From: a virus
Direction: 5' to 3' (one strand)
DNA: 22,975 bases
IMG/VR virus record: IMGVR_UViG_3300042691_014814
Location: 1 to 22,975 of that record
The translations under genes and the position numbers were made by a program. Numbering within the stretch: the stretch's first letter is position 1; every line of letters begins with the position of its first letter. The notes under the pieces are model-generated. The model was not told where the DNA came from. It made no database searches and was given only the letters and a program-made list of their open reading frames with translations. Below, piece after piece: positions 8,138 to 22,975 of this stretch.

Positions 8138-8139
8138 TT

Positions 8140-8749: not shown

Positions 8750-8758
8750 CAATCACCA

Positions 8759-9031: not shown

Positions 9032-9063
9032 AGGCTACACACTCCATAAATTACTAACTAGTG

Positions 9064-10635
9064 CTATCTTTGTACAACAGCATAGTTTGTAGTAATTAGT
9101 GTGCCAACAGCAGAAACGGCGTTCTGTAAAGCACAACGAGTAACTTTTACTGGGTCAATAATACCTTTCTCAAACATATCAACCACTTGTCTGTTTAAGA
9201 AATCGTATCCAACTTTATTGTCCTCTAGGTTACCAATTAAACTGACGATAATATCTGGTGACTCACCAGCATTAGCAGACATTTGACGAATTGGTTCCTC
9301 AAGTGCTTTCAAGACAATTTCAACACCAAACTTTTGTTCTTCGTTATCAATCTGGAAATTGATACCCTCAGTTGCTCTCAACAAAGCAACGCCACCACCG
9401 GCAACGATACCTTCTTGTTGTGCAGAACGTACTGCTTCCAAAGCATCTTCAATTCTGTGTTTCTTTTCAATTAGTTCAATTTCAGTAGAAGCGCCAACAC
9501 GAATAATAGCAATGCCAGAAGCAAGTCTAGTAATTCTTTCTTGGAGGCGTTCACACTCGTAGATTGATTCCGTTTGTGAAAGTTCTGCTTTGATTGCTTC
9601 AATTCTTGCGTCAATCTCTGGTAGTTCTCCCTTGCCACCTACGATTGTGGTTTGAGATTTGGCGATTTCAATTTTCTTTGCTCTACCAAAATCTTTGAGT
9701 TTAACATCACCAATCTTCATACCGCTTTCAGTAGAAACAAAGGTTGCTCCAACAGAAATGGCAAGGTCTTTCATAATGTTGCGTCGTTCTTCTCCGTATC
9801 GTGGTGCTTTAACTGCTGCGACTTTCATTGTGCCACGCATTGCGTTCATAATAAGAGCCGCTAGTGCTTGTCCTTCAATTTCCTCTGCTACAATAACAAA
9901 TGGCTTACCTTCTCTTGCGATAAGTTCAAGAACAGGAAGCATATCTTGAACGGAATCGAACTTACGATCCGTGACAAGAATATAAGGTTCCTCGTACTTA
10001 ACAACTCCACGCTTCTCATCATTTATAAACGCTGTTGCTAAATAGCCGCTATCAAAGCGAAAACCCTCAACTACATCCAAAGAAGTTTCCAAAGAACGCG
10101 CTTCTTCAATAGTAATTGCTCCGTCCTTTCCTGCTTTATCTACTGCTGTTGCAATCAATTTTCCTATTGCTCTATCGTTATTTGCGGAGATTGTAGCAAT
10201 ATGTTCAATATCTTCCTCGGAGGAAATTGGAGAAGAAATTTCTGTAAGACGTTCAACGATCAAAGAAGTTGCTTTTTCCATACCTCTCTTCATTTCTACT
10301 GGAGATACGCCAGAGATAATGTATTTCTGTGCTTCGCGCAATAGGGCACGGGACAATACAATAGAAGTAGTTGTACCATCACCAGCCTGTGTTGCTGTTT
10401 GTTGTGATGCTTGCTTGATTATTTGTGCTCCCAAGTTCTCAAATGGGTCATCAAGGTCAATAAAATTAGCAATCGTTACGCCGTCTTTGGTTACGATTGG
10501 TGCTTTGCCTTTCTCTTGAAGAATTACGTTTCTTCCTCTTGGACCCAAAGTAGAAACTACATTGTCGGCCAATACGTTTGCACCTTTGAGGATCGCTTCA
10601 CTTAAAGCACGACCATCATTAAATTGTTTGCTCAT
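9064..10635 (-). CDS. groEL: GroEL-like chaperonin (60 kDa)
   Basis: An ATP-driven folding chamber subunit. The start is the ATG at 10633-10635 (MSKQFNDGRALSEA) because CGGAG lies five bases upstream; a longer frame adds only seven residues. The 523-residue product has the full chaperonin plan: TLGPRGRNV at 29-37, KDGVT with D51, AGDGTTT with D86, an apical domain with PFVIVAEEIEGQALAAL, IEDALEAVRSA carrying the ATP-hydrolysis Asp near 395, and AGGGVAL. It lacks the Gly-Met-rich tail and ends TTNYAVVQR. No GroES lies in the window, so it either borrows the host's, has one elsewhere, or acts without it as described for the phage EL chaperonin. Confidence 0.98.
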   Translation of the reverse strand: MSKQFNDGRALSEAILKGANVLADNVVSTLGPRGRNVILQEKGKAPIVTKDGVTIANFIDLDDPFENLGAQIIKQASQQTATQAGDGTTTSIVLSRALLREAQKYIISGVSPVEMKRGMEKATSLIVERLTEISSPISSEEDIEHIATISANNDRAIGKLIATAVDKAGKDGAITIEEARSLETSLDVVEGFRFDSGYLATAFINDEKRGVVKYEEPYILVTDRKFDSVQDMLPVLELIAREGKPFVIVAEEIEGQALAALIMNAMRGTMKVAAVKAPRYGEERRNIMKDLAISVGATFVSTESGMKIGDVKLKDFGRAKKIEIAKSQTTIVGGKGELPEIDARIEAIKAELSQTESIYECERLQERITRLASGIAIIRVGASTEIELIEKKHRIEDALEAVRSAQQEGIVAGGGVALLRATEGINFQIDNEEQKFGVEIVLKALEEPIRQMSANAGESPDIIVSLIGNLEDNKVGYDFLNRQVVDMFEKGIIDPVKVTRCALQNAVSAVGTLITTNYAVVQR

Positions 10636-10657
10636 GATAACTCCGTTGTTGAGCAAT

Positions 10658-10685
10658 AATATAACCAGAACAATTAAAACGTCAA
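10658..10685 (-). promoter_or_regulatory. Sigma70-like promoter of groEL
   Basis: Minus strand TTGACG (10680-10685), 16-base spacer, TATATT (10658-10663). It sits exactly between the stop of the 539-residue gene and groEL, and would give a leader of about 16 bases with CGGAG. Confidence 0.6.
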
Positions 10686-12305
10686 TTATTCTTCGTGGAA
10701 TTCTTCAACAATAATTGAAATACTAAGACCACCAGCAAATCTAATATCAAGTGTAGTCTTGTAATTCTTTTCGCCCATCATCGTCAAGAAAGAGAAGTTG
10801 AACCCTGCTTTTGTTGGGGTGTCAAACAAAAATGCTTCTTTTGATGCTAAATTAAGTGAATCACGACCCTTGAATAAAGTGACGCTTGCTGGGCTTCCAT
10901 CTGCAAAAGCAACAACTTTCTTAAACGTAGGATTGAATCCAGATAAACTTACACCAAATGCTGTTAAAGCAAGCATAGGATTGTCATACTTTACCATAAC
11001 TTCGTTTGCTTGTTTAAGATTCTCAAAGTCATTTAGATATGATGACATAAATCTATAACAAGTAGATTTGGAAACTAAGTTACCAAGTTCTTGTTCTATA
11101 CTTTTAACTTTTTGTACTTTTTTGGGAACACCTTCTTTTATATCTACACCATAAGCAGACAAAGAGTTCTTAAATGCTTGTTTGCTGTTTTGATATTCTT
11201 CTCTATATTTCTCTGCCAAAACATCAGCATTTGGAATAGTTCTATCTTTGTATAGTTTAAGAATATTTGTTTCTTCGCTTGTAAATTGGAAGGATTTTGA
11301 TGATAACTCTTTACCTTGGATATTTTTGATATTAAGGAAAGCAGTTGCTCTACCAGATAATGCTTCTTCTTCTTTAAGAGAAATAGCATGAATTAAAGGT
11401 GAATCACCCTCAAATAACTGATTGAGGCCAACTTGTTTAATTTCATCCTCTTCTGCAATAGAAATGATATTACCATTTTCAGCAGATTGTTCCAAGATAT
11501 CTTTTATTTGTTCTATTGAATTAGCATCATATAAATAGATATCGCCGGGACACCATTTGTCTGGTTCAATTTTGGTAATTGATGAAGCAACCTTTCTAAT
11601 CATCTCAAAAAGGTTACCTCTATCAACAACGTTCATGTTAAACGTAAGACAAGTTTTAGCAGCAGAGATAGCATTTAGATAAAGACCAATTTCTTTTTTA
11701 TCTGTTATTTTATTTTCATTAAGATAAGTAATTGCATTTTTGACTAAGCCAGCAGACTTCTTAGCAAAATAAACTGAATTGATTATTTGTACTGGCAAAT
11801 CTAATGCTGTGTCTGCTTTATTTTTAAGTTTGTTTTCTGCTTGCTCTATGCCACTACTGCCAACAAGGAAGAAATAGGAAACCAAACCCTCTTTCATATC
11901 TGGGGTTTCTGTTCCTTGCAGTCCACCTTTGGTAATTTTGGCTGTAAATACACCTTTGCCTAATTGATTGAGAGCATATTTGTTCCCATCAGTCGAAGGA
12001 ATAACGGGGGTCATCCTTGTGCCCTTCTTAAACAAAGCATCTAATTTTTGTTTATCTGCGTTTGCGTCGATTAAGGCTTGAAGGAATTGTTGGCCTTCGG
12101 GTGATTCAATATCAACAGTAAAATATACTGGCTCTTGATCTATGCTTTTTGGTTCAAGGAATAATTGTTCGCCATTTTGTATTTTTTGTACAAATGGTGT
12201 AAAATACTTCATTTTAGAAATATCGTTAGTATCAAGTGTTGCTTCTGCGAGCAACTCAACCTCATGAATAAGGTTGAATAGTTGTTTAATATCGAAGGTA
12301 TTCAT
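10686..12305 (-). CDS. Uncharacterised protein with leader peptide, probably virion-packaged (539 aa)
   Basis: I cannot assign a known family. The N-terminus MNTFDIKQLFNLIHEVELLAE is an amphipathic helix with I-H-E at 13-15 and L-A-E followed by Ala at 19-22, both matching the prohead-protease cleavage pattern I/L-x-E. The middle carries DKWCPGDIYLYD at residues 249-260, a W-x-P-x-D-I-[YW] pattern I associate with uncharacterised phage proteins. The rest is Lys/Glu rich, alternating helices and strands, with no membrane segment. There is no Shine-Dalgarno site; ACTATTTAAT lies three bases before the ATG. Its place between the ClpP-like protease and groEL suggests a late protein. Confidence 0.8.
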   Translation of the reverse strand: MNTFDIKQLFNLIHEVELLAEATLDTNDISKMKYFTPFVQKIQNGEQLFLEPKSIDQEPVYFTVDIESPEGQQFLQALIDANADKQKLDALFKKGTRMTPVIPSTDGNKYALNQLGKGVFTAKITKGGLQGTETPDMKEGLVSYFFLVGSSGIEQAENKLKNKADTALDLPVQIINSVYFAKKSAGLVKNAITYLNENKITDKKEIGLYLNAISAAKTCLTFNMNVVDRGNLFEMIRKVASSITKIEPDKWCPGDIYLYDANSIEQIKDILEQSAENGNIISIAEEDEIKQVGLNQLFEGDSPLIHAISLKEEEALSGRATAFLNIKNIQGKELSSKSFQFTSEETNILKLYKDRTIPNADVLAEKYREEYQNSKQAFKNSLSAYGVDIKEGVPKKVQKVKSIEQELGNLVSKSTCYRFMSSYLNDFENLKQANEVMVKYDNPMLALTAFGVSLSGFNPTFKKVVAFADGSPASVTLFKGRDSLNLASKEAFLFDTPTKAGFNFSFLTMMGEKNYKTTLDIRFAGGLSISIIVEEFHEE

Positions 12306-12308
12306 GTT

Positions 12309-12318
12309 ATTAAATAGT
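12309..12318 (-). promoter_or_regulatory. Start-proximal late-type element (ACTATTTAAT)
   Basis: Minus strand ACTATTTAAT three bases before the ATG of the 539-residue gene, between it and the ClpP stop. The element and its distance to the ATG are identical to those at 5587-5596, and no Shine-Dalgarno site is present. Confidence 0.5.
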
Positions 12319-12322
12319 TAGT

Positions 12323-12997
12323 TTATACGATAATGTCAGCAATTCCAAGTTTAACTGCTTCTTCTGCTGAAAGATATACATTTACTTTCTTATCAATCAT
12401 CTTGCGAAGTTGATTGTAAGACATATTTGTTTCTGTGGATAATGCTCTAAGATATGATTCTTGAATATAACGAATCTCTTCCATTTCATTTTCAAGATTA
12501 TGGAAAGAACCAGCACTACCACCAATAACAGAGTGGATCATGACACGACAATTCTTACCAATCTTACGTTGTCCCTTGGTTCCTGCTGCAAGAACAAGAA
12601 CACCAGCAGACATTACTTTACCAAGACCAAAGGTATGAATTTCGCATACTTCACGCTTAACACGCATATAGTCATATAAAGCAAACATATCGTCTGCATT
12701 ACCACCGGGAGTATTTATCATAAACTCAATTGGCTTGAGTGACTGAACTTCTTCTGTGTGTGTACCATCTTCGTTCACAATCTTCTTTCGCTTTGGCTCG
12801 GACAAAACCAAGATAGCAGAAATAAGATCAGAAATCTTTTCTTCTTCAACAGCACCAAATAGACCAATTGTTCGATGCTCTGGAGGAACTAGAAATTCTG
12901 TTGATTCACCTTCATCGTCGTCATCATCTTCATCGTCATGAACATGCTCTTCAACATCTTCGTTCTTTGACTTACGTTTACTGAAATTCAATGACAT
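12323..12997 (-). CDS. clpP: ClpP-like serine protease (S14 family) with acidic N-terminal extension
   Basis: The ClpP fold is clear: RTIGLFGAV at 42-50, EFMINTPGGNADDMFALYD at 91-109, the nucleophile in GKVMSAGVLVLAAG (S130), and H155 in RVMIHS. The Ser-His spacing of 25 equals that of E. coli ClpP. The third triad position, Asp in E. coli (D-R-F-L-S), aligns with N206 in VNVYLSAEEAVKLG, so the triad appears to be Ser-His-Asn. Residues 13-33 form an acidic extension (EEHVHDDEDDDDDEGE) absent from bacterial ClpP. It could pair with host ClpX/ClpA or serve in head maturation; the acidic scaffold-like gene lies two genes upstream. GAGAGGAACCA precedes the ATG. Confidence 0.92.
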   Translation of the reverse strand: MSLNFSKRKSKNEDVEEHVHDDEDDDDDEGESTEFLVPPEHRTIGLFGAVEEEKISDLISAILVLSEPKRKKIVNEDGTHTEEVQSLKPIEFMINTPGGNADDMFALYDYMRVKREVCEIHTFGLGKVMSAGVLVLAAGTKGQRKIGKNCRVMIHSVIGGSAGSFHNLENEMEEIRYIQESYLRALSTETNMSYNQLRKMIDKKVNVYLSAEEAVKLGIADIIV

Positions 12998-13020
12998 TGG
13001 TTCCTCTCTTTGTCAATTAT

Positions 13021-13049
13021 AGTATAACCAATCTATTACTTGTTGGCAA
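13021..13049 (-). promoter_or_regulatory. Sigma70-like promoter of clpP
   Basis: Minus strand TTGCCA (13044-13049), exactly 17 bases, TATACT (13021-13026). Both boxes match the consensus in five of six positions. The start falls at about 13014, just before the AGAGAGGAA ribosome site of the ClpP-like gene. The -35 box lies inside the last codons of the upstream gene. Confidence 0.65.
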
Positions 13050-13437
13050 GTTCTTCTTTTTGTGCCTTAAACATTTCGTTGATATGCTTGACTGCACCGT
13101 TCCAATTTGTAAAAGGAAGGTACTTTTGTTTGTATGCATCTGGATAGTTGTTTACCAGAGTTACAATAACTTTTTCTCTCCACATCCTAAATGATCTTTC
13201 GTGGATCATAATATAATGTTCAATATCGTTCTCGGACATACCTTTTTCTTTAAGAATTAGTCTTTTACTTTCTAAAACAAATTGAATATCCTGCTCTGCC
13301 AATACAAGAGCAAGCAACAAATCATTTGTTACTTTTTCTACTGCTTTACCCAAAACACCAAATTCCAAAGCAGAAGAAAATACTTTATGGAATAAAATGC
13401 CTGCAACAAACCATAAAATACCAGATAAAATTGTCAT
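13036..13437 (-). CDS. N-terminally membrane-anchored hypothetical protein (133 aa)
   Basis: The start is set to the ATG at 13435-13437, since AAGGAACAGC lies directly upstream; a longer frame to 13479 would run through the terminator hairpin and is rejected. Residues 1-17 (MTILSGILWFVAGILFH) form a membrane anchor, followed by a soluble helical domain with charged stretches (LESKRLILKEKGMSEND) and a Trp/Tyr-rich region near the C-terminus (YLPFTNWNGAV). No family is recognised. It stands just after a terminator, so it may be the first gene of its unit; a possible promoter overlaps that terminator. Confidence 0.7.
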   Translation of the reverse strand: MTILSGILWFVAGILFHKVFSSALEFGVLGKAVEKVTNDLLLALVLAEQDIQFVLESKRLILKEKGMSENDIEHYIMIHERSFRMWREKVIVTLVNNYPDAYKQKYLPFTNWNGAVKHINEMFKAQKEELANK

Positions 13438-13450
13438 GCTGTTCCTTATG

Positions 13451-13485
13451 AAATAAAAGGGCCATGTTATTTCTAACATGGCCCC
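13451..13485 (-). terminator. Rho-independent terminator with GAAA tetraloop
   Basis: An 11-base-pair perfect stem (GGGCCATGTTA with TAACATGGCCC, 13459-13469 and 13474-13484) closed on the minus strand by a GAAA tetraloop and followed by TTTTATTT. It ends the unit containing the acidic scaffold-like gene. Confidence 0.88.
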
Positions 13486-13506
13486 GAATACATGGCAAAT
13501 ATTCTA

Positions 13507-14148
13507 TTAAACTATTCTGCGGATAACACGTTTGAGGACTTCGTTTATTATTTCATCATCAGTTACTAAGTCCACATTGTCGAAAGCCAAAGACTCTTTC
13601 ATTTTGTGCTTTAGATCACCCCCTTTAAGGTTATGAGTCTTTTTGGTGGCTTTCTTGTCTTTTTTATCGTGTTTGGCCTCTTGGAGTTCATCCTCCATTT
13701 CGCCTTCTTCTTCCTCACCTTCCTCATCTTCCATATCGACTTCTTCTTCATCGCTGGCGAGGTCCATATCTAAATCCATATCTTCTTCTTCGTCGGCCTC
13801 TTCGGCACCTTCAAGTTCAGCCATAACTTGTGGTAATACTTCTTTTAATGCATCTCTAAGAACGGCCTTGAAATCATCTGCGCCACCCTCAAAATCTGCT
13901 TCGGTTGATGGTGCTTCTGGTTCCATATCCATATCATCGGCTTCCATGCCTGTTCCCATATCGTCACCTGTATCGGAGGGACCGGCATCGGCTGCTTCAT
14001 CTTCGCCCATATCACCAGTACCTTCAAGACCAGTATATGTTTCATTTAATACACTTTTCTTAAAATTATCAATCTTATCTTGTTTGATATTTGCAAGTTT
14101 CATAAAGTTAGAAACTTGGTTTTCTGTGAGTAATGTTTTCTTTGCCAT
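13507..14148 (-). CDS. Very acidic protein, probable prohead core/scaffold component
   Basis: A 213-residue protein of striking composition: a Lys-bearing helical N-terminus (1-36), a Gly/Asp/Met-rich acidic region (about 42-88), a helix DDFKAVLRDALKEVLPQVMAEL, a long run of Glu and Asp with Met (about 117-157), a Lys-rich patch (HDKKDKKATKKTH) and a C-terminal basic helix ending KRVIRRIV. Five I/L-x-E sites occur (LTE, LNE, LKE, LQE, INE), somewhat more than expected by chance. This recalls T4 prohead core proteins, which are acidic and cut at such sites. GTAGGAG lies ten bases before the ATG and ACTATTTAAT lies farther upstream. Homology is not shown; the role is inferred from composition. 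Confidence 0.7.
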   Translation of the reverse strand: MAKKTLLTENQVSNFMKLANIKQDKIDNFKKSVLNETYTGLEGTGDMGEDEAADAGPSDTGDDMGTGMEADDMDMEPEAPSTEADFEGGADDFKAVLRDALKEVLPQVMAELEGAEEADEEEDMDLDMDLASDEEEVDMEDEEGEEEEGEMEDELQEAKHDKKDKKATKKTHNLKGGDLKHKMKESLAFDNVDLVTDDEIINEVLKRVIRRIV

Positions 14149-14167
14149 GTAATTGAACTCCTACGAA

Positions 14168-14177
14168 ATTAAATAGT
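14168..14177 (-). promoter_or_regulatory. Late-type element (ACTATTTAAT)
   Basis: Minus strand ACTATTTAAT, identical to the elements at 5587 and 12309 but 19 bases before the ATG of the acidic gene, leaving room for a leader with GTAGGAG. Probable late promoter. Confidence 0.45.
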
Positions 14178-14195
14178 AAGTATTTTACAAAAAAC

Positions 14196-14504
14196 CTAAT
14201 TTTCTTTTTCAATAATATCAAAAATATTACTAATATCTTGTTCCGAGAACAAAAACTCTTCTAATTCTTGCGCTTTAGTAATTAGTTTTTGTTTTCTTTC
14301 AAGTCTTGCTCTAGTTCTAATATTACCTCTTTCAAGTCTTTTTTTATTCATCCAAGCGTTAAATTCTGGATCATCATCAAGATAAGCATCGATAACATCC
14401 CTTAAAAAGTCTGCTTGTCGTTTATATCCATCTTGAAAAAGTTTAACAATTAGTTCTGCCTGTTTTTGTCTTTCAATCCAAAACCTAAATCTTTTCCAAT
14501 CCAT
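14196..14504 (-). CDS. Basic helical hypothetical protein (102 aa)
   Basis: A mostly helical basic protein. It opens MDWKRFRFWIERQKQAEL, has YLDDDPEFNAWMNKKRLERG in the middle (residues about 46-65), and ends in an acidic helix (EEFLFSEQDISNIFDIIEKEN, quoted to show charge). No family is recognised. Its ATG forms a TAATG junction with the GMP-reductase-like gene, so it is probably translationally coupled. It may bind nucleic acid given its Arg/Lys clusters, but no motif proves it. Confidence 0.7.
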   Translation of the reverse strand: MDWKRFRFWIERQKQAELIVKLFQDGYKRQADFLRDVIDAYLDDDPEFNAWMNKKRLERGNIRTRARLERKQKLITKAQELEEFLFSEQDISNIFDIIEKEN

Positions 14505-15538
14505 TAGTGATTTCTTTCAAGAATATGTGTTCTACTTTCACCGATACTTGCACCAGATTGTCGAACAAATTGTGCTTTTGCCCAATATTCATTTATAGTT
14601 CTGGCTCCACTATATGAAAATGCAGAACGAATACCGTTTTCAAGTTGTTCAATAATGTCAAATGTTGGACCTTTATATGGTACGGTTGTTGAAATACCTT
14701 CAAGAGAAGATGATTTACCACGCCAATCTATTTGTGCATCTTTGGATGCCATACCACGATATACTTTACGTCTTTCTCCAGTTTCGGACAAAATAATTTT
14801 ACCGGGTGTACAATCAGTTCCCGCAAGAATAGAGCCAATCATTGCAAAGTCTGCTCTTGCTGCAAGTGCTTTTGCTATATCTCCACTATTCTTTATTCCA
14901 CCATCAGCAATAATTGCAACATTGTGTTGGGTTCTGGCGCAATCTATAATTGATTCCAATGAAGGAACACCATGACCAGTTTGTATACGAGTAGAGCAAA
15001 TGCTGCCCCCGCCAATACCAACGCGAATAGAATCAACTCCCCAACCAGCCAAACGATCAAATCCGTCAAGCGTTGCAACATTACCTGCCATGATGTGCGG
15101 TGCCTCGCCAAGTTTACTCCTTAGTTGCTGGGTTGCTCGTTGCATAAGGATATGATCTCCATGTGCAACATCGATACATAGAATTTTTGCTCCTAAAGTA
15201 ACTAGTTGCGTCGCACGTTCAAGGTAATCTCCACTTACACCAATTGCAAAACCAACCTTTTCTCCAGCAACATTTTCTAAAATTGTTTCTGCCATTTGTG
15301 ATTGTTTTTCAATTGTGTTGTATCGATGAACAATACCAAGACCTCCCATGCGAGCCATAGCAATAGCCATTTTTTCTTCACAAATGGTGTCCATAGGTGA
15401 AGCAATAATTGGAAGATTAAATTTAAGATTTCTGTTTTGGTCTAACCAATTACCAATTTCAACTTCTCTTCTTGATTCAATGTCCGAGTATTGTGGAACA
15501 AGTAGAACATCATCATAAGTTAGGGTTTCCTTGAACAT
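14504..15538 (-). CDS. guaC: GMP reductase-type enzyme (IMPDH/GMPR family)
   Basis: A TIM-barrel enzyme that would convert GMP to IMP with NADPH. The full length (344) and absence of CBS domains fit GMP reductase rather than bacterial IMP dehydrogenase (about 490). The active-site loop GGGSICSTRIQTGHGVP has catalytic C181, and its T-R-x-x-T-G-x-G-x-P continuation is the GMP reductase version. Other hallmarks are LIIASPMDT-like NLPIIASPMDT, IADGGIKNSGD (209-219), YRGMAS (260-265), and the E280-G pair before VPYKG. AAGAGGTAATA precedes the ATG. It sits four genes after a purA-like gene, suggesting joint use. An IMP dehydrogenase lacking CBS domains remains the alternative. Confidence 0.87.
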   Translation of the reverse strand: MFKETLTYDDVLLVPQYSDIESRREVEIGNWLDQNRNLKFNLPIIASPMDTICEEKMAIAMARMGGLGIVHRYNTIEKQSQMAETILENVAGEKVGFAIGVSGDYLERATQLVTLGAKILCIDVAHGDHILMQRATQQLRSKLGEAPHIMAGNVATLDGFDRLAGWGVDSIRVGIGGGSICSTRIQTGHGVPSLESIIDCARTQHNVAIIADGGIKNSGDIAKALAARADFAMIGSILAGTDCTPGKIILSETGERRKVYRGMASKDAQIDWRGKSSSLEGISTTVPYKGPTFDIIEQLENGIRSAFSYSGARTINEYWAKAQFVRQSGASIGESRTHILERNH

Positions 15539-15540
15539 TA

Positions 15541-15885
15541 TTACCTCTTATTAAAAGAATCTAAAAAATCTGCCATATCATAAAGTGAATAACCAGAATC
15601 TGGATCTGGGTTTTGTGGATATGGTATTTCTTTTCTACTGTCTTTGTCAACAATAAAAACAGTTGGCACACCAGATACCTTAAAAAACTTAAACATTTTT
15701 CTTGAGTTGTTTGCATTGCACTCAGCAAATTCATAATCATTAAACATCATAGAAAGTTGCTCATATACGGGTTTTAACCCAGAACATAAATGACAAGTGG
15801 GATTATAAAATTTAATTACAATTGGTTTATCACAACTTTTTAATACAGTAGAAAAGTTTTGATCATTTATTTGTTTTATTTTCAT
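15541..15885 (-). CDS. trx: Thioredoxin-like protein
   Basis: A small dithiol oxidoreductase of 114 residues. The active site is NPTCHLCSGLKPV with C31 and C34 (the family norm is CGPC, so the H-L dipeptide is divergent), the cis-proline loop is GVPT at 72-75 followed by strand VFIVD, and the N-terminal strand PIVIKFY is typical. It probably reduces ribonucleotide reductase or other phage proteins. The start overlaps the DUF3310 gene by 23 bases and has only a distant AAAGG, so coupling is likely. The altered CHLC pair would shift the redox potential. Confidence 0.88.
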   Translation of the reverse strand: MKIKQINDQNFSTVLKSCDKPIVIKFYNPTCHLCSGLKPVYEQLSMMFNDYEFAECNANNSRKMFKFFKVSGVPTVFIVDKDSRKEIPYPQNPDPDSGYSLYDMADFLDSFNKR

Positions 15886-16093
15886 ATTGTTGAATTAGCC
15901 TTTCCACATACCATTTTGCTTTTTGCAAATCTTGAAGTGGTTTACCTTTATATTTATATCTTGAAAGATATTTAATAGCATTACCAGCACAGAATTCTTC
16001 ACCCCATCCTAAATCTTCAATATAATCAATTACTTCAATTGAGCCTTGATTGTAATGATCTGGATGATTTACTTGTTCTTTTGGTGTATCCAT
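15863..16093 (-). CDS. DUF3310 family phage protein
   Basis: The protein follows the DUF3310 (SaV-like) pattern closely: VNHPDHYNQGSIEVIDYIED (starting near residue 8), then EEFCAGNAIKYLSRY and DLQKAKWYVERLI. The family is widespread in phages and has no firmly established biochemical role. The start at 16091-16093 is chosen because GAAGGAAAACTA precedes it and because it forms a TAATG junction with the zinc-ribbon gene; a longer frame adds ten residues. Length is 76 residues. Confidence 0.88.
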   Translation of the reverse strand: MDTPKEQVNHPDHYNQGSIEVIDYIEDLGWGEEFCAGNAIKYLSRYKYKGKPLQDLQKAKWYVERLIQQYENKTNK

Positions 16094-16344
16094 TAGTTTT
16101 CCTTCACCAAATCTTCTGCCCATGCTTGAACATCTTGTCTACACTCTGGACAGTATAGTTTTACTTCTTGGCGTTCGTTAAACACCATAACAGTCCAAGT
16201 TTGTGCATGTTCTCTACTCTTTCTGTCAAATGGCTTTGAGCATCCAATACACTTATCACCCATTTTTCCAAAGAGTAATAACTTTTCTTGAAGAACAGGA
16301 TTTTCTCCATTTTTCTCAGCCTCCCTTCTTTGTTTTCTATTCAT
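16093..16344 (-). CDS. Small zinc-ribbon protein (83 aa)
   Basis: Two CxxC pairs, KCIGC (C32, C35) and YCPEC (C65, C68), are separated by 29 residues, forming a likely zinc ribbon. The N-terminus is basic (MNRKQRREAEKNGEN) and the C-terminus helical (DVQAWAEDLVKEN). Similar small zinc proteins are common in phages, though I cannot name this one. It may bind nucleic acid or a host protein. AAGGACTAATCT precedes the ATG; it overlaps the purA-like gene by eight bases. Confidence 0.78.
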   Translation of the reverse strand: MNRKQRREAEKNGENPVLQEKLLLFGKMGDKCIGCSKPFDRKSREHAQTWTVMVFNERQEVKLYCPECRQDVQAWAEDLVKEN

Positions 16345-17380
16345 AGATTAGTCCTTCTACATTGTGTGGGTTTGATGAATAATAAATTTCTTCTAGTGAA
16401 TCGCATTTATCTTTACAAGTTTGTGTAATGAAACTTTGCATATCACTCAAATTACTAAATTCAATCAAAGAACGGTCATAATATAACTTAAAGTGACCCG
16501 TCTGTTCAAGTATATCACACTTATTTACAATTAGATGTGTTGCTCCACCAATTTGTACTGCTTCAACAAGTTTGTCTAGATTAAGCCAATTTACTTTACG
16601 TCTGCGACCTGTTGTTACCCCATATTCTTTTCCTGCATCTGCAATAGAAAGAAGTTTTGGATTCTCAAGTAGACAGGATGGAAACAATGGATCTTCGCCA
16701 GAACGTGTATCATAAATCTTTGCAGAAGCATAAATGTTTCTAATTTTCTTTGGACCAAAGCCAAGAGAACAAGCAGCATATGGCAAAGTCTCCGAGGATG
16801 TTACAAATGGATAATTGCCATAATTGATATCTAAATGAAATCCTTGTGCTCCTTCACACAAAACATTGCCATGCAACTTATCACGAAAGATAAACTTTTG
16901 ATCTAACTTAGAGTCTTGAACAAGTAAACCAGTTCTACCATACTTATCACGATATGCTGGTGCAATACCTTGTGAGGTTGTTCCCATCCTTTCTGCATAA
17001 CGTTGTTTATCTTCTTCAATGTGTTTGCCTGTAACAATATGGCATTTTGGATGTACTTTTACTAATGAAGTATCAATACCTCCTGCTTCAAGTTCTGCAA
17101 TTTCTTTATAAAATGATTCAATATTTAGTACACAATTGGGACCGATAAGAGAAGTAATGTTAAAGAATACGCCACTAGGAACAATATGTGTAGCGAACTT
17201 CCTGCCTTCATGATAAATGGTGTGTCCCGCATTTGATCCTCCTGCCCATCGGGCTACAAAATCATAATAGTTTGTTCCATCTGGGTTTTTCCTATTTGCA
17301 AGGAAATGTGAAACTTTACCTTTGCCTTCATCACCCCATGATGCGCCATAAACTATATCAACATTATTGACTTTATCCAT
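16337..17380 (-). CDS. purA: Adenylosuccinate synthetase, compact form
   Basis: Joins IMP and aspartate with GTP to give adenylosuccinate, the committed step to AMP. The start is the ATG at 17378-17380, directly after AGAGGATAAA; a longer frame runs into the methyltransferase gene. The motifs are GASWGDEGKGK with the catalytic D17, GGSNAGHT with H53, GTTSQGIAPAYRDK (133-146), EGAQG (176-180), DTRSGEDP and TTGRRRKVNWL (246-256). At 347 residues it is much shorter than bacterial PurA (about 430) and near archaeal length. PurZ enzymes that make 2-aminoadenine replace the catalytic Asp with Ser; here Asp is kept, so ordinary PurA chemistry is favoured. Confidence 0.9.
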   Translation of the reverse strand: MDKVNNVDIVYGASWGDEGKGKVSHFLANRKNPDGTNYYDFVARWAGGSNAGHTIYHEGRKFATHIVPSGVFFNITSLIGPNCVLNIESFYKEIAELEAGGIDTSLVKVHPKCHIVTGKHIEEDKQRYAERMGTTSQGIAPAYRDKYGRTGLLVQDSKLDQKFIFRDKLHGNVLCEGAQGFHLDINYGNYPFVTSSETLPYAACSLGFGPKKIRNIYASAKIYDTRSGEDPLFPSCLLENPKLLSIADAGKEYGVTTGRRRKVNWLNLDKLVEAVQIGGATHLIVNKCDILEQTGHFKLYYDRSLIEFSNLSDMQSFITQTCKDKCDSLEEIYYSSNPHNVEGLIYE

Positions 17381-17390
17381 TTTATCCTCT

Positions 17391-17879
17391 TTAGATTTCT
17401 CTGCCTTTACAATCCATCCTACCATACTTTGGTGGGACATACAATGTGTCCCCTCCAAATACCACAACCATTGATGGAAATGGTGCTGAATTTGCAGAAC
17501 CACCAAACTTTAATCTACCTTTAATAAAAAAGATTTGATTTGCTTTAGTGCAATAATCATGGAAAAACTTAGTATCAGTTCTTGCAGCAACAAGCATAAC
17601 GACAGTTGTGTTTGGCTTTTTACTTTCTTTAAGTGCTTTTTCAACCCATACTTTTACATTAGAATAGGGAGGATTTACATATACTGTATTTCCTCCCCAA
17701 TCTTGTGAAAGTCCATCATCTTGTTGTGTAAAAAACTTAGAACATTTAGTGTTTTGTGCAGTTGCACATGGATCAAGAGTAAAATTATAACTTTTATTTA
17801 GACCATCATAAAAGTCCTGCGATGTTGACCACTCATCCTTCTGTGAGGAAAACATTAGATTTTGAGTTTTTGCGTTCAC
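17391..17879 (-). CDS. dam: DNA N6-adenine methyltransferase (phage Dam family)
   Basis: Transfers a methyl group from S-adenosylmethionine to adenine N6 in DNA. The phage Dam family signature is clear: DEWSTSQDFYDGLN at 15-28, the strand FTLDPCA (33-39), and the catalytic NPPYSN at 69-74 followed by VWVEKAL. At 162 residues it is the usual single-domain size. The start is GTG at 17877-17879, with AAAGGAAATATA before it; the first ATG eight codons later lacks a ribosome site. It overlaps the SH3-like gene by 47 bases. It probably protects phage DNA from host restriction. Confidence 0.92.
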   Translation of the reverse strand: MNAKTQNLMFSSQKDEWSTSQDFYDGLNKSYNFTLDPCATAQNTKCSKFFTQQDDGLSQDWGGNTVYVNPPYSNVKVWVEKALKESKKPNTTVVMLVAARTDTKFFHDYCTKANQIFFIKGRLKFGGSANSAPFPSMVVVFGGDTLYVPPKYGRMDCKGREI

Positions 17880-18150
17880 TATATTTCCTTTCTGTGTCAG
17901 TTAAATTTTCAACAAATTCCCAATCATAATAAGTATTTAGTTTATGAGCCCCAAGTGGCAAAACGTGAAAAACTGCATACATATCACTATCATCTTCACA
18001 CATATCTTCGCCATGATTACGGAAATCATAGTAATGATTTATGTAAACACCATATACAATTGTGTTGTCTGGATAAACTTGGAACTTTATTACGTCACCA
18101 ACTTTAACGTCCCGTGGAGCCGAACCCGTTGGAATTTCTATTCGTTTCAT
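17833..18150 (-). CDS. SH3-like barrel hypothetical protein (105 aa)
   Basis: Residues 13-25 DVKVGDVIKFQVY resemble the opening strand of the other small SH3-like proteins here, followed by NTIVYGVYINHYYDF and a later YAVFHVLPLGAH strand. The C-terminus is charged (SERKNSKSN). It is probably a small beta barrel of the KOW/SH3 type; the function is unknown. GAGGAATTAA precedes the ATG, which lies inside the end of the dUTPase gene (47-base overlap), and its end overlaps dam. Confidence 0.65.
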   Translation of the reverse strand: MKRIEIPTGSAPRDVKVGDVIKFQVYPDNTIVYGVYINHYYDFRNHGEDMCEDDSDMYAVFHVLPLGAHKLNTYYDWEFVENLTDTERKYSERKNSKSNVFLTEG

Positions 18151-18529
18151 TTAATTCCTCAACAAATTGAAAATCATCAATTGAAATGCGTTCTGGAATT
18201 GCTTGTGCAATTCTGTCACCTTTATTAAAGGTAAAGGCAAGATTAGAAGTGTTGTGAAGAACAACTTTCCACTCACCACGATAAGATGAGTCAATTACAC
18301 CAGCAAGAACATCAATACCGTTTTTTACAGCAAGTCCGGAACGAGGGGCAACACGCATATAATATTCTGGGTTAAATGATGTAGAAATACCTACAGATAT
18401 TGCTGCTCTTTGTCCGCCAAGAAGAATTCCTTCTTCGGCAGCATAAAGGTCAATTCCAGCATTTCCAAACTCTCTTTGTTTTAGATCGACAAAGTTTTCA
18501 AGTTTTTTGACTTTAAGATTAAGGCTCAT
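18104..18529 (-). CDS. dut: dUTPase (trimeric)
   Basis: Hydrolyses dUTP to dUMP, keeping uracil out of DNA and supplying the dTMP precursor. All five motifs are present: NAGIDLYA (23-30), APRSGLAVKNGI (61-72), AGVIDSSYRGE (76-86) with the catalytic Asp80, KGDRIAQAI (103-111) and NGFGSTGR at the C-terminus (134-141). The 141-residue length is standard. AAAGGAAAAAC precedes the ATG. It overlaps the 96-residue gene upstream and the SH3-like gene downstream. Confidence 0.97.
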   Translation of the reverse strand: MSLNLKVKKLENFVDLKQREFGNAGIDLYAAEEGILLGGQRAAISVGISTSFNPEYYMRVAPRSGLAVKNGIDVLAGVIDSSYRGEWKVVLHNTSNLAFTFNKGDRIAQAIPERISIDDFQFVEELNETNRNSNGFGSTGR

Positions 18530-18809
18530 GTTTTTCCTTTGCTTGTTTCAATTTAACAAGTTCTTCTATACTTTCAAGCCAATCAGTAGAGATTTCTATT
18601 TCTTTATTATCATCTTCAATGGGCCAACCACGCTTTGACCAATCTTCAATCATGGCTCTCCAAGTTTTAATTGGGATTTCAATCTTAACAGATTTATTGG
18701 TTGCCTCAAAATTTACGTTATAGATATCAAGATGCACATTAGAAACATCAAATATCTCTTGATATAGATGATATTGTGAATCATGCGAAATAGTAAACTT
18801 TGTGCTCAT
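18519..18809 (-). CDS. Hypothetical protein (96 aa)
   Basis: The start is the ATG at 18807-18809 (MSTKFTISHDSQYHLYQ), which forms a TAATG junction with the lipoprotein stop and has ACGGAG five bases upstream; a longer in-frame extension is not favoured. Visible pattern: VSNVHLDIYNVNFEA and VKIEIPIKTWRAMIEDW suggest a beta-rich N-terminal half, and the C-terminus is helical and Lys/Glu rich. No family is recognised. It is coupled to the dUTPase gene by an 11-base overlap. Confidence 0.72.
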   Translation of the reverse strand: MSTKFTISHDSQYHLYQEIFDVSNVHLDIYNVNFEATNKSVKIEIPIKTWRAMIEDWSKRGWPIEDDNKEIEISTDWLESIEELVKLKQAKEKHEP

Positions 18810-19678
18810 TACAACTCCGTTATTGTTGTAGCCGAACCTCTCCAATCAATTTGACAAATTGGAGCAAAGTAGTTTTCATTATCAATATTTCTTGTATCTG
18901 TCCAATACAAGTAGCCTCCAACATAAACATTTACAGTAACGTTATTTTCTCCAATATAAGCAGAGCCGGGATAATCATGAACAAATACGGTATATGCTCC
19001 ACCAACTGGATAATCAATATTTATGTTTTCTGGACCTGTGCCGGGAATATCATCAAGGTCTAAAATAGGATCATCATCTGTAACACCTCTTACACCCCAA
19101 TCAAGCATACCTGTGGTGCAATTAGCATAGTAACAATCACTATTAGTTCCAAGAACACCAGAGGGCTTTAGTAAATGCAAATCCATATCATCACCAGAGT
19201 TTGTCCAGAACATTTCAATCCAAAGACCATCTCCCGCATTTGCAGTTAAAGTTGTAACACAAGGCTCGGATACTTGTCCAATATCGTTTGTTACAATAAG
19301 TTGTGCTACATAATCTCCAGCCAAATCTGGTGTGAAATTTCTTACATTTGGAGAAATAGATGAAATAGTAGCAGTAGAACCAGCAGGAGAAGAAAGCAAA
19401 GTCCACTCAAATCCAATAATGCTTTGTCCATTTGTATCGTATGAGGTATTTCCAATCCACTCTGCTGTGCCATAAATTGCATCAACAACTGATGGTGTAA
19501 CCGAACAAACGGCAATAGGCTCACCAATAAATGGAGGACTACTATCACCTGTTTCATCTGGTGCTGTATCTTGTGTATCTCCGCTATCGATGACAACGCT
19601 AGTGTCCGTATCTATTGGATCTTTTGGTTTTACATTTACGTTATTCTCTAATACACAAGCAAATAAAAAAGTAAGCAT
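18809..19678 (-). CDS. Secreted lipoprotein with PKD-like and C-terminal beta domain
   Basis: Begins MLTFLFAC, a very short signal with lipobox L-F-A-C, predicting a lipid-anchored Cys8. An Asp/Thr/Ser-rich linker follows (residues about 20-47, DTDTSVVIDSGDTQD and on), then a PKD/Ig-like domain (about 50-148, with GFEWTLLSSPAGSTA and DLAGDYVAQLIVTN), then a domain with SGDDMDLHLLKPSG, DCYYANC, DDPILDLDDIPGTGPENI and YTVFVHDYP (about 155-275). As I recall, such linkers and this D-L-H-L / G-P-E-N-I domain are common in lipoproteins of Myxococcota and relatives. It ends with DWRGSATTITEL. AAGGGAAAAATC precedes the ATG. Possible roles are superinfection exclusion or host-surface change. Confidence 0.75.
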   Translation of the reverse strand: MLTFLFACVLENNVNVKPKDPIDTDTSVVIDSGDTQDTAPDETGDSSPPFIGEPIAVCSVTPSVVDAIYGTAEWIGNTSYDTNGQSIIGFEWTLLSSPAGSTATISSISPNVRNFTPDLAGDYVAQLIVTNDIGQVSEPCVTTLTANAGDGLWIEMFWTNSGDDMDLHLLKPSGVLGTNSDCYYANCTTGMLDWGVRGVTDDDPILDLDDIPGTGPENINIDYPVGGAYTVFVHDYPGSAYIGENNVTVNVYVGGYLYWTDTRNIDNENYFAPICQIDWRGSATTITEL

Positions 19679-19692
19679 GATTTTTCCCTTAT

Positions 19693-19702
19693 AATAAATA
19701 GT
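19693..19702 (-). promoter_or_regulatory. Late-type element (ACTATTTATT)
   Basis: Minus strand ACTATTTATT just after the uvsE stop and 14 bases before the lipoprotein ATG, with AAGGG between. It shares the core CTATTTA with the elements at 5587, 12309 and 14168. Probable promoter for the lipoprotein gene. Confidence 0.4.
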
Positions 19703-20628
19703 TATGCTGCTTGCTTATGAAGTTGCAAATACTTCATTACAGCGAGTTCTTTCATTTTTGCTTCAATCATAATATCAACATCGTGACCATAAGTGTCAAT
19801 ATATTTGTAAACAAAATCGGAGTGTGCTTGTGCAGGACACCTAATCTTTTGCTCTTCGCAACGGGACTCGGAGTAATGAACAACTGGCTTTACATTACCC
19901 CAAGTAGATACGGCAATAGCAAGTGCATCAGCATGAGGCATTGAATTATTATTAAGTGTATGATGGTGGTAATCAAATACAATTGGAATTGAGGTTCTCT
20001 TATAAATTGAGTTATAGAGTTCTTCAGTTGTGTAAAGCGATGGTTTATCGTCATTTTCAAGTGTGAACCTTCCTTTGATATTATCTGGGAGCAACTCAAA
20101 GTTTCTTAGAAACTGCTCAATTGCAGCAGGCTTATTCTTGTATGTTGCTCCAACATGAATATTGATCTTGTTGTAATGTGTATTAGAAAGTCCCATAAGA
20201 TCCATGATATCTGCATGAACCTTTAGGTCTTTGATTGTATTGGTAGTTACTCGGTCATTTGACGAAGTTAGTTTGTTGAAAGGACCGGGATGAAATGTAA
20301 GTCGTTGGTTATTTGCTTTTGCCCAATCTCCACACTTTTTAAGGATTGTGGAAATTTGTTCAATATTTGGTAGGTTGTAAATGCCATACTCGGATGCCCA
20401 AGGAAACATATCGGAGGACATACGATAGAAATTAAATCCGTTCTGTGTATTCCAAACAAGGATTTTGTACAGGTCTTGCACGTTCAATAGAGCAAGTTCG
20501 GCAGCATAATTGATGCCACGGTCCTTGAACGTCTTTTGGATCATTGTTCTATTGGTTGTAACACGCTTTTTTGCAGGAACGTTAGAAAGTCCAAGATTGA
20601 TGCACGCATAACCAAAGTTTACAGGCAA
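19702..20628 (-). CDS. uvsE: UV-damage endonuclease UvsE/UVDE
   Basis: Cuts DNA 5' to UV photoproducts to start repair. A TIM-barrel enzyme of 308 residues, with family motifs NFGYACINLGLS (4-15), FNFYRMSSDMFPW, QRLTFHPGPFNKL, INIHVGATYKNK, FTLENDDKPSLYT, IPIVFDYHHHTLN and VVHYSESR, which carry the metal ligands of the three-metal site. The only in-frame start near the family N-terminus is TTG at 20626-20628, with GGGG eight bases upstream. The start lies in the U-run of the terminator of the gene before it, and a promoter overlaps that hairpin. The phage thereby brings its own photoproduct repair, useful in sunlit water. Confidence 0.93.
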   Translation of the reverse strand: MPVNFGYACINLGLSNVPAKKRVTTNRTMIQKTFKDRGINYAAELALLNVQDLYKILVWNTQNGFNFYRMSSDMFPWASEYGIYNLPNIEQISTILKKCGDWAKANNQRLTFHPGPFNKLTSSNDRVTTNTIKDLKVHADIMDLMGLSNTHYNKINIHVGATYKNKPAAIEQFLRNFELLPDNIKGRFTLENDDKPSLYTTEELYNSIYKRTSIPIVFDYHHHTLNNNSMPHADALAIAVSTWGNVKPVVHYSESRCEEQKIRCPAQAHSDFVYKYIDTYGHDVDIMIEAKMKELAVMKYLQLHKQAA

Positions 20629-20700: not shown

Positions 20701-21435
20701 TTATTCTGCTCTAACAGGCAAACCAATATCTTTATCAACACCTAATTCCTTAAATAAAGACATTATTCTATTTGGTGTTTGTTCGTGATATTCACCCGCT
20801 TTCAAGCGTTGATAGTTTTGAGGAGATAGATAATAATATTTATCTTGATAGGCAAAAGAATAAGCACCATTATTGTATCCATGCCCTGTTTTGCCTTTGG
20901 CAAGACTGTTTAAGTCTGGTATTTGTATAAACCCAAGATTTCTTAAATTATCTAATGGTTGTGCAAAACTCATTTCTTTAATAAGTTCTTCTTTGATTAT
21001 TTTACGAAGCATATTTTCAGTAATTTTTGTTGTCTTACTTTCACCAATCATGCTTTTAATAGGTAATCTAGGATTTTCTTTTATTTCCAATTTATCGAAC
21101 AAAGAGTAAATTTGTTTTAATTGTGCTTGTTGTTCACTTTCTGGTAGTTTTTTGCGTGTAAATCCATCTTCATCTTTAGCAAAAAAATCTAAGTAATAGT
21201 ATCTGTTTTTGTGAATAAAAGCAAATTGGTCTTTATCGTTTTTATTAAACAAACTTTTGTGTAGAAACACCATCAATTCACTTGCTGGGTTTGTAACGAT
21301 ATTACGGACTTCTCTAAAACCTAAGTTTAACAAATGTTCTAATGGTGTTACATTTGCCTCTACTTCTGCTTTTCTTGCTAATTCGTCAGTTTCTTCATTT
21401 ATAATTCTACGAAGAACAGATTTTGTAAGTTTCAT
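20701..21435 (-). CDS. Internally duplicated protein with two capsid-targeting-like leaders (244 aa)
   Basis: Two similar halves: residues 1-127 and 135-244. Each opens with an amphipathic leader ending in I-x-E (MKLTKSVLRRIINE; TKITENMLRKIIKE), then L-x-x-L-x-x-L-G-F with following I or V, a strand set ending in a Tyr-Tyr-Tyr-Leu motif (NRYYYLDF; DKYYYLSP), a charged segment, and SLF-[DK]-[KE]-L with a final LP. The halves are diverged but co-linear. No enzyme motif is seen. AAAGGAATTATATT precedes the ATG and GCTATTTATA lies farther upstream. Probably packaged in the head with the DNA; the molecular function is unknown. Confidence 0.75.
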   Translation of the reverse strand: MKLTKSVLRRIINEETDELARKAEVEANVTPLEHLLNLGFREVRNIVTNPASELMVFLHKSLFNKNDKDQFAFIHKNRYYYLDFFAKDEDGFTRKKLPESEQQAQLKQIYSLFDKLEIKENPRLPIKSMIGESKTTKITENMLRKIIKEELIKEMSFAQPLDNLRNLGFIQIPDLNSLAKGKTGHGYNNGAYSFAYQDKYYYLSPQNYQRLKAGEYHEQTPNRIMSLFKELGVDKDIGLPVRAE

Positions 21436-21453: not shown

Positions 21454-21957
21454 CTATAAATAGCGAGAATCAAAAATAACGTTCCATTTTTGTTCTAAAG
21501 TATACATAATTCCAGAATGTAATTGGTTTGTATTGTCTTCAAGCCAATCTTGGTCTACCCATTTATAATCATCATTTTCCCAATCTAATATAATTGGTTT
21601 TGACTCAAATTCATCTGTAACTTTTATAATGAAAGTTGTATATTTAAAACCATCTTCATCATCTTGGTAAATAGTTTTATCTATTACATCGTATTTATCC
21701 AATGACAAACCACACTCTTCTTTTAGTTCACGAATAGCAGAATTAAGCGGCGTTTCTCGTCCATCGATGGCACCGCCGGGAATTCCCCAAGTTCTGCCTT
21801 CTGTTACTTTTTCGGAGCGTAGTAATAACAAAACACGCTCACCTGTAGTAAGCAAAACGCCACTTGCCTTCTTTCCCCAATGACCTTTGTTGGTATATTC
21901 TGTTTCCTTTAAGACTTCTTTGATTAAAGAAATTAAATGGCGTTTTGTTAGTTTCAT
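21454..21957 (-). CDS. Nudix hydrolase with leader peptide
   Basis: Contains a perfect Nudix box at residues 62-84 (G62, E68, R76-E77, E80-E81, G83), so it hydrolyses a nucleoside diphosphate linked to another group, such as modified dNTPs, NADH-type cofactors or RNA caps; the substrate is not readable. The start is the ATG at 21955-21957, giving MKLTKRHLISLIKE, which matches the N-terminus of the duplicated gene and ends in I-K-E (residues 12-14) and L-K-E (16-18). A longer frame to 22023 runs into dnaE. There is no Shine-Dalgarno site; ACTATATAAT lies three bases before the ATG. The leader suggests capsid packaging, as for T4 internal proteins. Confidence 0.88.
   Translation of the reverse strand: MKLTKRHLISLIKEVLKETEYTNKGHWGKKASGVLLTTGERVLLLLRSEKVTEGRTWGIPGGAIDGRETPLNSAIRELKEECGLSLDKYDVIDKTIYQDDEDGFKYTTFIIKVTDEFESKPIILDWENDDYKWVDQDWLEDNTNQLHSGIMYTLEQKWNVIFDSRYL
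21455..21464 (-). promoter_or_regulatory. Late-type element (GCTATTTATA)
   Basis: Minus strand GCTATTTATA at the end of the Nudix gene, 19 bases before the ATG of the duplicated-leader gene, with AAAGGAATT between. It shares CTATTTA with four other such elements, although it also encodes the last Nudix codons, so chance cannot be excluded. Confidence 0.35.
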
Positions 21958-21960
21958 ATG

Positions 21961-21970
21961 ATTATATAGT
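21961..21970 (-). promoter_or_regulatory. Start-proximal late-type element (ACTATATAAT)
   Basis: Minus strand ACTATATAAT exactly three bases before the Nudix ATG, right after the dnaE stop, with no Shine-Dalgarno site. It differs by one base from the elements at 5587 and 12309, at identical spacing. Confidence 0.48.
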
Positions 21971-21971
21971 C

Positions 21972-22975
21972 TTATGCTAATAATTTTAGTTGATGTTTCA
22001 AGGAACGAACAGAAAATCCCCAAGTATCGTCGTGATCTGGTTTTCCCATGTATGGTTTGTGTAACATGATTACATCACCATCTTTAATACCCCAACATTT
22101 AATTTGAGTTTCTGTATTTGTATCATCGATGGTATTTACAATCCAATATTCTTTACCAGTTGAAGTTTTACGTTTGATAATTTCTTTTGGAATAAACCAG
22201 ACAAGACCAAGTTCTGGATCAAACTCGGAGATTGGTGGAACCATCTTTTCTTGTAGTCTATTTAGGATCTCTGTTGGTGCAACAAGATTGATTGGATAAA
22301 CACCAGTAAGTTCAGTTAGGTACTGGATCTTTTCCTCTTGCGAGAAATCACCTTCGGGGGCATAAGTCTTGATATTTTCATCAAGGTCTTTTTGCTTACG
22401 AGGACGATCTACAGCAACAGCAGACCAGAAATGCTTACCACCTGTAAATCTCTTGTCGATAAGACAACTCATAGCACCAGAACGACAAAGAACATCAAGT
22501 GCCTTTTTGTTCAGTTTGCTATATGACATTTTATCGTTGAACAAGAATTCTTCAATTGTCTTAAATGGGCGATTATTGGTGATTTGTAGAATTGCAACCT
22601 CGCCAAGTCCTTTGATTGAAGTCAAAGGTTGAATAAGTGTAGAACCATCCTCACTAATTTCCCACTCAGTTCCAGAAGTATTTACATTAAGAGTTTCAAT
22701 ATTAAACCCATGTGACTTAGCAATATTGATTGCTTTTTCCTTGTCTTTGTCGTTTTCTTTGTCAAGGAAACTAGCCATCCACTCAGCCTTATAATAAGTT
22801 GCTAGCCACGCACATTGGTACGATAGAATTGAATAGCAAACGGCGTGAGACTTATTGAAACCGTAACCCGAAAAGTACTCAAAAGTTTCCCAAAGTTTCT
22901 GTGCATCATTGGCCTTAATACCCTTTTCCACACAACCTTCGACAAACTTGTGATGAATTTTGTCTTTTTCCTCAA
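21972..22975 (-). CDS. dnaE: DNA polymerase III alpha subunit (DnaE-type), 3' part
   Basis: The C-terminal part of a family C replicative polymerase; the gene continues beyond the window edge (the frame is open from base 22973). Residues just inside the edge, FVEGCVEKGI and FSGYGFNKSHAVCYSILSYQ, are the hallmark fingers-domain segment of DnaE, followed by YKAEWMASFL. Then come the helix-hairpin-helix region IKGLGEVAILQI, LNKKALDVLCRSGAM, and a C-terminal OB-fold-like part (ELGLVWFIPKEII to CWGIKDGDVIML). It ends without the tau-binding tail of E. coli DnaE. An internal GTG at 22931 is not the true start. A phage family C polymerase is less usual than families A or B. Confidence 0.93.
   Translation of the reverse strand, partial: EEKDKIHHKFVEGCVEKGIKANDAQKLWETFEYFSGYGFNKSHAVCYSILSYQCAWLATYYKAEWMASFLDKENDKDKEKAINIAKSHGFNIETLNVNTSGTEWEISEDGSTLIQPLTSIKGLGEVAILQITNNRPFKTIEEFLFNDKMSYSKLNKKALDVLCRSGAMSCLIDKRFTGGKHFWSAVAVDRPRKQKDLDENIKTYAPEGDFSQEEKIQYLTELTGVYPINLVAPTEILNRLQEKMVPPISEFDPELGLVWFIPKEIIKRKTSTGKEYWIVNTIDDTNTETQIKCWGIKDGDVIMLHKPYMGKPDHDDTWGFSVRSLKHQLKLLA

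Follow-up and report, generated by a model that had tools for sequence, protein, structure and literature searches.

The 289-aa open reading frame on the minus strand at 18809–19678 of the window (the whole 22,975-base stretch analysed here, an IMG/VR virus record) very probably encodes an exported lipoprotein of host origin, maintained as a settled gene in a group of large phages. Our account of its role, that it is a host-derived envelope lipoprotein altering the surface of the infected cell, likely for the exclusion of other phages, is put forward at somewhat below even confidence. Superinfection exclusion as such, the leading candidate function by analogy with known phage lipoproteins, is the least certain part and is proposed more tentatively still. 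Two elements are new, namely the ultra-short signal peptides of these lipoproteins and the recurrence of the family in large phages. The features of the locus are as follows:

18809–19678, minus strand: lipoprotein coding sequence, 289 aa plus stop (translation; orthologues in eight related phage contigs; dN/dS 0.10–0.39)
19686–19690, minus strand: ribosome-binding site AAGGG, directly before the ATG (sequence reading; a script also finds a Shine-Dalgarno-like site before the same ATG)
19655–19678, minus strand: ultra-short signal peptide MLTFLFA and predicted lipid-accepting Cys8 (translation; short leaders at the same place in relatives)
19526–19654, minus strand: disordered Asp/Thr/Ser-rich linker, residues 9–51 (translation; AlphaFold pLDDT)
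19244–19525, minus strand: PKD/Ig-like domain, residues 52–145, with invariant Cys58 and Cys140 (alignment, profile and structure matches, AlphaFold)
18812–19243, minus strand: C-terminal beta domain, residues 146–289 (DDMDLHL, DCYYANC, LDLDDI, GPEN), a remote DUF2135/YfaP relative (alignment, AlphaFold, hhalign)
19702–20628, minus strand: UV-damage endonuclease UvdE, the upstream gene of the operon (Pfam E 7.6e-63; neighbour conserved in eight phage contigs)
18519–18809, minus strand: small downstream gene whose ATG overlaps the lipoprotein stop (TAATG), followed by dUTPase (sequence reading; neighbour in L001, L002, L063 and L064)

Genomic context and the phage group

The lipoprotein gene begins with ATG 23 bases after the end of uvdE, and its stop codon shares bases with the start codon of the small gene that follows, making it an ordinary member of the operon. 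Eight other viral contigs share the gene order DnaE, UvdE, lipoprotein, dUTPase, PurA (with IMPDH, ClpP and GroEL also in that order where the contigs are long enough), and their lipoproteins are 61–100% identical to that of the window. Purifying selection acts on the gene, with pairwise dN/dS of 0.10–0.39 among related phage copies, although some dS values are near saturation; these values and the shared position in eight contigs argue that the gene is not a chance reading frame. Its GC3 of 0.21 matches that of its phage neighbours, while the bacterial relatives have 55–75% GC, and with the dN/dS values this argues that the gene was not recently acquired.

Nearly all recognisable genes of the window lie on the minus strand. 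They include thymidine kinase, HAD phosphatase, GroEL, ClpP, IMP dehydrogenase, PurA, DNA methyltransferase, dUTPase, UvdE and Nudix genes, together with a DnaE-type polymerase represented by its C-terminal part (names from Pfam or PHROGs matches, some assigned by eye). The longest contig sharing this gene order, the 77.9 kb record of L003, encodes by PHROGs a tail sheath, tail tube, major head protein, baseplate hub, ssDNA-binding protein and UvsX, which places the group among the T4-type myoviruses. These genes, and terminases in four other large viral records with lipoprotein relatives, rule out a bacterial contig mistaken for phage. The INPHARED phage collection held no close DNA relative of the window.

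GroEL, ClpP, IMPDH and PurA lie in one operon of the window (9064–17506), which is an uncommon combination in a T4-type phage, and the presence of both PurA and IMPDH suggests phage control over both purine branches. N-terminal tags such as MKLTKSxLRxIIxEE and MKLLLExWKxYIxE recur on many phage proteins that are otherwise unrelated, both in the window (20701–21435, 21454–22023 and 4966–5583) and on other contigs (L138 8623–9788, L130 7109–7408, L171 4278–5147); these are perhaps capsid-targeting sequences cut by the prohead protease.

Domain architecture

A first reading of the sequence had described a lipobox LFAC and an Asp/Thr/Ser-rich linker followed by a PKD-like domain and a second domain with DMDLHLLKPSG and DDIPGTGPENI, and each of these elements was recovered. 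The protein begins MLTFLFAC (residues 1–8), of which residues 5–8 are the lipobox, and continues with the linker (residues 9–51), for which AlphaFold gives pLDDT below 50 at residues 1–41 and 43–47. The PKD-like domain occupies residues 52–145. Its assignment is secure at the level of the family, where 29 of 32 relatives match PF22352 (best E 1.7e-9) and the KIAA0319L PKD structures (PDB 6nz0) match at E 6.8e-19, whereas the window protein alone matches PF22352 under the Pfam cut-off (E 0.0022). The domain is modelled with pLDDT above 90, and its Foldseek matches are PKD domains of ColG and AAVR. Cys58, Cys140, Cys182 and Cys187 are invariant in all 32 aligned phage and bacterial relatives, as expected for a protein folded outside the cytoplasm, and presumably form disulphides.

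The C-terminal domain (residues 146–289) contains DMDLHLLKPSG and DDIPGTGPENI, nearly invariant across the same 32 relatives, and its AlphaFold model is beta-rich (pLDDT 88.3, pTM 0.87). No Pfam family matched it above cut-off, including the DUF2135/YfaP model PF09906. Alignment with hhalign linked it to DUF2135 with 97% probability (E 9.7e-11), but from a template of only two sequences, and we therefore treat the link as a remote relation and not as family membership. Common to the two is the pattern W..D..DxDLH...P.G...YY..N...G...D...GxGPE...G.Y.V, while the lipoprotein differs in a long insert with DCYYANC and LDLDDIPGT. A TerD-like fold, suggested by a Foldseek name, was rejected (hhalign 0.1%; the TerD profile also served as negative control for DUF2135), as was a plain PPC domain, for which all matches fell under cut-off.

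Foldseek searches of the C-terminal domain against the PDB gave no match with E < 0.001. The best viral Foldseek match was gp180 of Cellulophaga phage phi4:1 (E 4.9e-7; hhalign 93%), which has a similar domain but is a 713-residue protein of another kind lacking a signal peptide, so that the fold is not bound to the cell surface. A search of the literature on YfaP/DUF2135 function yielded nothing useful.

Bacterial relatives and the probable host

A scan of GTDB-species genomes yielded 58 bacterial loci, nearly all in metagenome-assembled genomes (MAGs) named Myxococcota, Myxococcales or Deltaproteobacteria, in agreement with the original prediction that this combination is frequent in Myxococcota. 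Oddly named records (uncultured proteobacterium, Bifidobacterium breve) shared their phylum with a Myxococcales MAG in the grouping of the search tool, and matches in Ectothiorhodospiraceae, Acidobacteria and Bdellovibrio were partial and weaker. When the phylum of one of these loci was searched, 27 of 284 genomes had close relatives. The family is multicopy in bacteria (3 to 11 matches per genome, the weaker ones being the PKD domain alone), and the DNA flanking the nearest cellular copies has 69–73% GC.

The window protein belongs to this Myxococcota family of PKD plus DUF2135-like lipoproteins, having both domains and the invariant C58, C140, D-M-D-L-H, DCYYANC and GPE in the 32-sequence alignment, and grouping with the family in the tree. 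The closest bacterial relatives are 55–58% identical over about 235 residues. Uncharacterised MAG lipoproteins such as L012, L013, L022 and L080–L083 have their domains in the same order and a linker of the same kind, and share the motif after the Cys and the invariant C, D and GPEN positions; identity reaches 58%. They differ in GC content (55–75% versus 38%) and in their signals (12–26 residues, mostly with K or R, versus 7 without). An additional ASPM/HYDIN-like domain precedes the PKD domain in many cellular and some phage copies.

The identity of up to 58% to multicopy Myxococcota proteins supports the host link that had been proposed. The MYXO-CTERM motif (TIGR03901), described as a Myxococcota tag (PMC11980579), was found above cut-off in the records of two phages from the clade to which the window belongs. 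In that of L068 it is internal to a gene at 16099–19674, with thrombospondin-3-like repeats before it and an OmpA-like domain after it, and in that of L132 it lies at 114822–114905. None of 14 control genomes had a match above cut-off, and a search of the window's own phage group found none. Judged from sequence, a Myxococcota host for these phages is supported by the kinship of the lipoproteins and by MYXO-CTERM in the two sister phages. Phage GC is low (about 36%) compared with 55–75% in the known relatives, which makes the exact host less certain.

No match to CRISPR spacers of candidate hosts, proposed as a check on the host, emerged when 379 genomes of the phylum were compared by short DNA matches. 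Such matches occurred in 63 of the 379 genomes, those placed lying in conserved genes (GroEL, ClpP and IMPDH), in the lipoprotein gene or in acidic stretches of low complexity, and none was spacer-like. No phages are known for most Myxococcota, and the lipoprotein family provides a practical marker tying dozens of uncultured large phages to this phylum.

Recurrence of the family among phages

The original prediction considered such a protein unusual in a phage, but a broader scan found relatives on 29 IMG/VR viral contigs of up to 242 kb, mostly with no common neighbour genes within 10 kb of the lipoprotein. One clade comprises 18 phage sequences including that of the window (ultrafast bootstrap 92 and SH-aLRT 80 in a careful tree, SH-aLRT 99 in a quick tree), while the remaining phage sequences occupy three further places; the phage copies branch within the bacterial ones. 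Going by the well-supported branches, the label must switch between phage and bacterium three times or more, and the viral sequences were united in 0 of 200 bootstrap trees. Since the AU test of a single viral group gave p 0.062, one origin of the viral copies is not rejected at the 5% level; the position of the other phage copies, apart on the tree, makes several captures from bacteria likely. The sister bacterial lineage differs between the quick and careful trees.

Closest homologues lying in phages alone had been named as evidence against a host origin. The closest homologues are indeed in phages, but bacterial ones follow at 54–58% identity. Descent from a host gene is supported by Myxococcota kinship and by the nesting of phage copies among bacterial ones, and its value as a clue to the host also by MYXO-CTERM in two sister phages. 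A recent pick-up is at odds with a GC3 of 0.21 against bacterial GC of 55–75%. If phages have captured this one host surface lipoprotein repeatedly, they would seem to need it on the infected cell, which would point to an important surface receptor or sensor.

Ultra-short signal peptides

The length of the leader had gone unremarked in the original prediction. In the window copy only seven residues, none of them K or R, precede the predicted lipid cysteine, whereas reviews describe lipoprotein signal peptides of 16–26 residues with a charged n-region (PMC8689077); the window leader thus lacks the length and positive n-region of the usual signal with its hydrophobic helix. Its lipobox also departs from the consensus [LV][ASTVI][GAS]C by F at position -2, while LIAC in L002 fits, and L003, L063 and L065 have MLAC or FLAC.

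In all close phage relatives 7–10 residues precede the Cys, and K and R are absent from this stretch (MLTFLFAC, MLTFLIAC, MITLLMLAC, MITTLLMLAC, MLTLLLFLAC, MITLLLLLAC). More distant phage leaders include MVLFLLTVAC and MINILYFILAC, and still other phage copies have 12–19 residues. A longer leader from an earlier start is excluded in L002 and L063, where reading back from the ATG meets an in-frame stop after just 3 codons and 1 codon, respectively. The bacterial homologues have 12–26 residues before the Cys, nearly all with R or K. After the Cys, C-[TS]-[DE]-Y-x-[VL]-[NH] is found in most phage and bacterial relatives, and this homology aligns the phage Cys with the cellular lipidation Cys.

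In a survey with a crude regular expression (without SignalP), lipobox leaders in 313 kb of the Myxococcota MAG G010 were mostly 8–18 residues long and included MVMWLVLAC, MLLLTLLAC, MTGMMLLLSC and MIPWLILLAC; other phage lipoproteins had leaders of 9–10 residues, and a small E. coli control of 50 kb gave 15 only. Because candidates of 8–9 residues occur in these bacteria, the usual length rule may itself fail there. The short leader thus probably represents a genuine dialect and not decay, although with a length so far below 16–26 residues export may fail. If uncharged leaders of seven residues are truly exported and lipidated, standard rules of lipoprotein prediction miss some lipoproteins in these bacteria and phages. 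A broader reading, in which large phages of Myxococcota have repeatedly taken over host PKD/DUF2135-like surface lipoproteins for envelope remodelling or exclusion, and phages and hosts both use an uncharged signal dialect of 7–10 residues, far shorter than in reviews, is possible but doubtful.

Other lipoprotein genes were observed on the contigs of relatives. Di-haem cytochrome c peroxidases (CCP_MauG, E 5e-50 to 4e-52) are encoded as lipoproteins in the large phage contigs L127 (19697–20671, minus strand), L130 (5867–6853, plus strand) and L131 (5886–6869, plus strand), with signals of 9–10 residues (MIALLALLAC, MIAILSLLIAC, MIALLSFLIAC). In L135 (8358–9986) a second lipoprotein of 542 aa with HYDIN/ASH-type domains lies directly upstream of the homologue and has the nearly identical leader MINRIFFLYYLAAC, and on the 236 kb phage contig L136 three more lipoprotein-like genes follow the homologue (11062–13503).

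Proposed function and alternatives

We propose that an ancestor of the gene was taken from Myxococcota and that its product would be made during infection alongside the nucleotide-metabolism genes. From the leader and the aligned Cys we infer Sec export by a minimal seven-residue signal peptide and lipidation on Cys8, after which the protein would stay anchored to the envelope of the infected myxobacterium, displayed at the outer membrane on a 40-residue tether. The linker would project the disulphide-stabilised PKD domain and the DUF2135-like binding domain, and likeness to the host paralogues would change or mask the surface, the likeliest benefit being the exclusion of competing phages. Such a change of surface fits best with a lytic phage that keeps a host-type surface lipoprotein under purifying selection, exclusion having known precedents.

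These precedents are Llp of T5 (PMC9586334) and Ltp of TP-J34 (PMC3952083). If our proposal holds, the protein would resemble T5 Llp as an outer-membrane lipoprotein made by a lytic phage during infection, but Llp is a small periplasmic FhuA-binding protein (PMC9586334) and not a known homologue. The Ltp-type lipoproteins of Streptococcus thermophilus phages are likewise phage-encoded and surface-exposed on the host cell, but are different proteins from the lysogeny modules of temperate phages of Gram-positive hosts (PMC3952083). Compared by name, neither Llp nor Ltp appeared among the Pfam, PHROGs or PDB matches of the window protein. The gene showed no linkage to receptor, tail or lysis-cassette genes, its neighbours in the window's group being genes of DNA metabolism.

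The same display could instead serve adhesion or aggregation, the PKD/DUF2135-like module making infected cells adhere to kin, prey or matrix and thereby bringing progeny to new hosts. Myxococcota hosts are probably social or predatory and carry many paralogues, adhesins often contain PKD and Ig-like arrays, and adhesins and S-layer domains appear, weakly, among the Foldseek neighbours of the full model. However, beyond PKD these matches have low TM-scores, no carbohydrate- or protein-binding match exceeded threshold and the gain within a single lytic cycle is unclear, and we consider adhesion unlikely.

Slightly less likely again is that the gene is host cargo with no role in infection, or an auxiliary gene that simply adds to the supply of some useful surface protein of the host. 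Multicopy families in the hosts, and other host-type envelope genes (the di-haem cytochrome c peroxidase lipoproteins) in some relatives' phages, are consistent with this, and the gene may supply more of the same host function; but purifying selection, phage-like codon use and occurrence in many phage lineages indicate that the gene is kept for a reason.

It is improbable that the N-terminus is vestigial and that the product stays and works in the cytoplasm, as seems to be the case for the related domain in phi4:1 gp180 (hhalign probability 93%), a protein lacking a signal peptide. The uncharged seven-residue leader would suit such a role, but all close relatives retain a hydrophobic stretch ending in AC though its residues vary, and the Cys of the phage proteins falls in line with the lipobox of the cellular ones. 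Four further Cys residues never vary, and leaders of 8–10 residues occur on other phage and bacterial lipoproteins. Least probable is a spanin-like aid to lysis or a shield of the envelope until lysis, which a predicted envelope lipoprotein might provide and which a GH46-type enzyme, maybe an endolysin, near the gene in L068 and L129 might favour, as the almost all-beta fold has no coiled-coil or spanin anatomy, known spanins are unlike PKD plus DUF2135-like domains, and neighbours vary among phage lineages, with no lysis cassette in the window's group.

The surroundings of the gene in other phages include further genes of note. In L139 (2407–7911) it is surrounded by a tandem array of some twelve small paralogous genes whose products end in HxDLFR or NLDLFR, and the 171 kb phage contig L131 has an open reading frame (7048–8937) resembling acyl-CoA dehydrogenase by eye. 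In one phage group, that of L068, a GH46 (chitosanase-type) enzyme and a SET-domain protein adjoin the lipoprotein gene (8448–9152 and 9139–9564).
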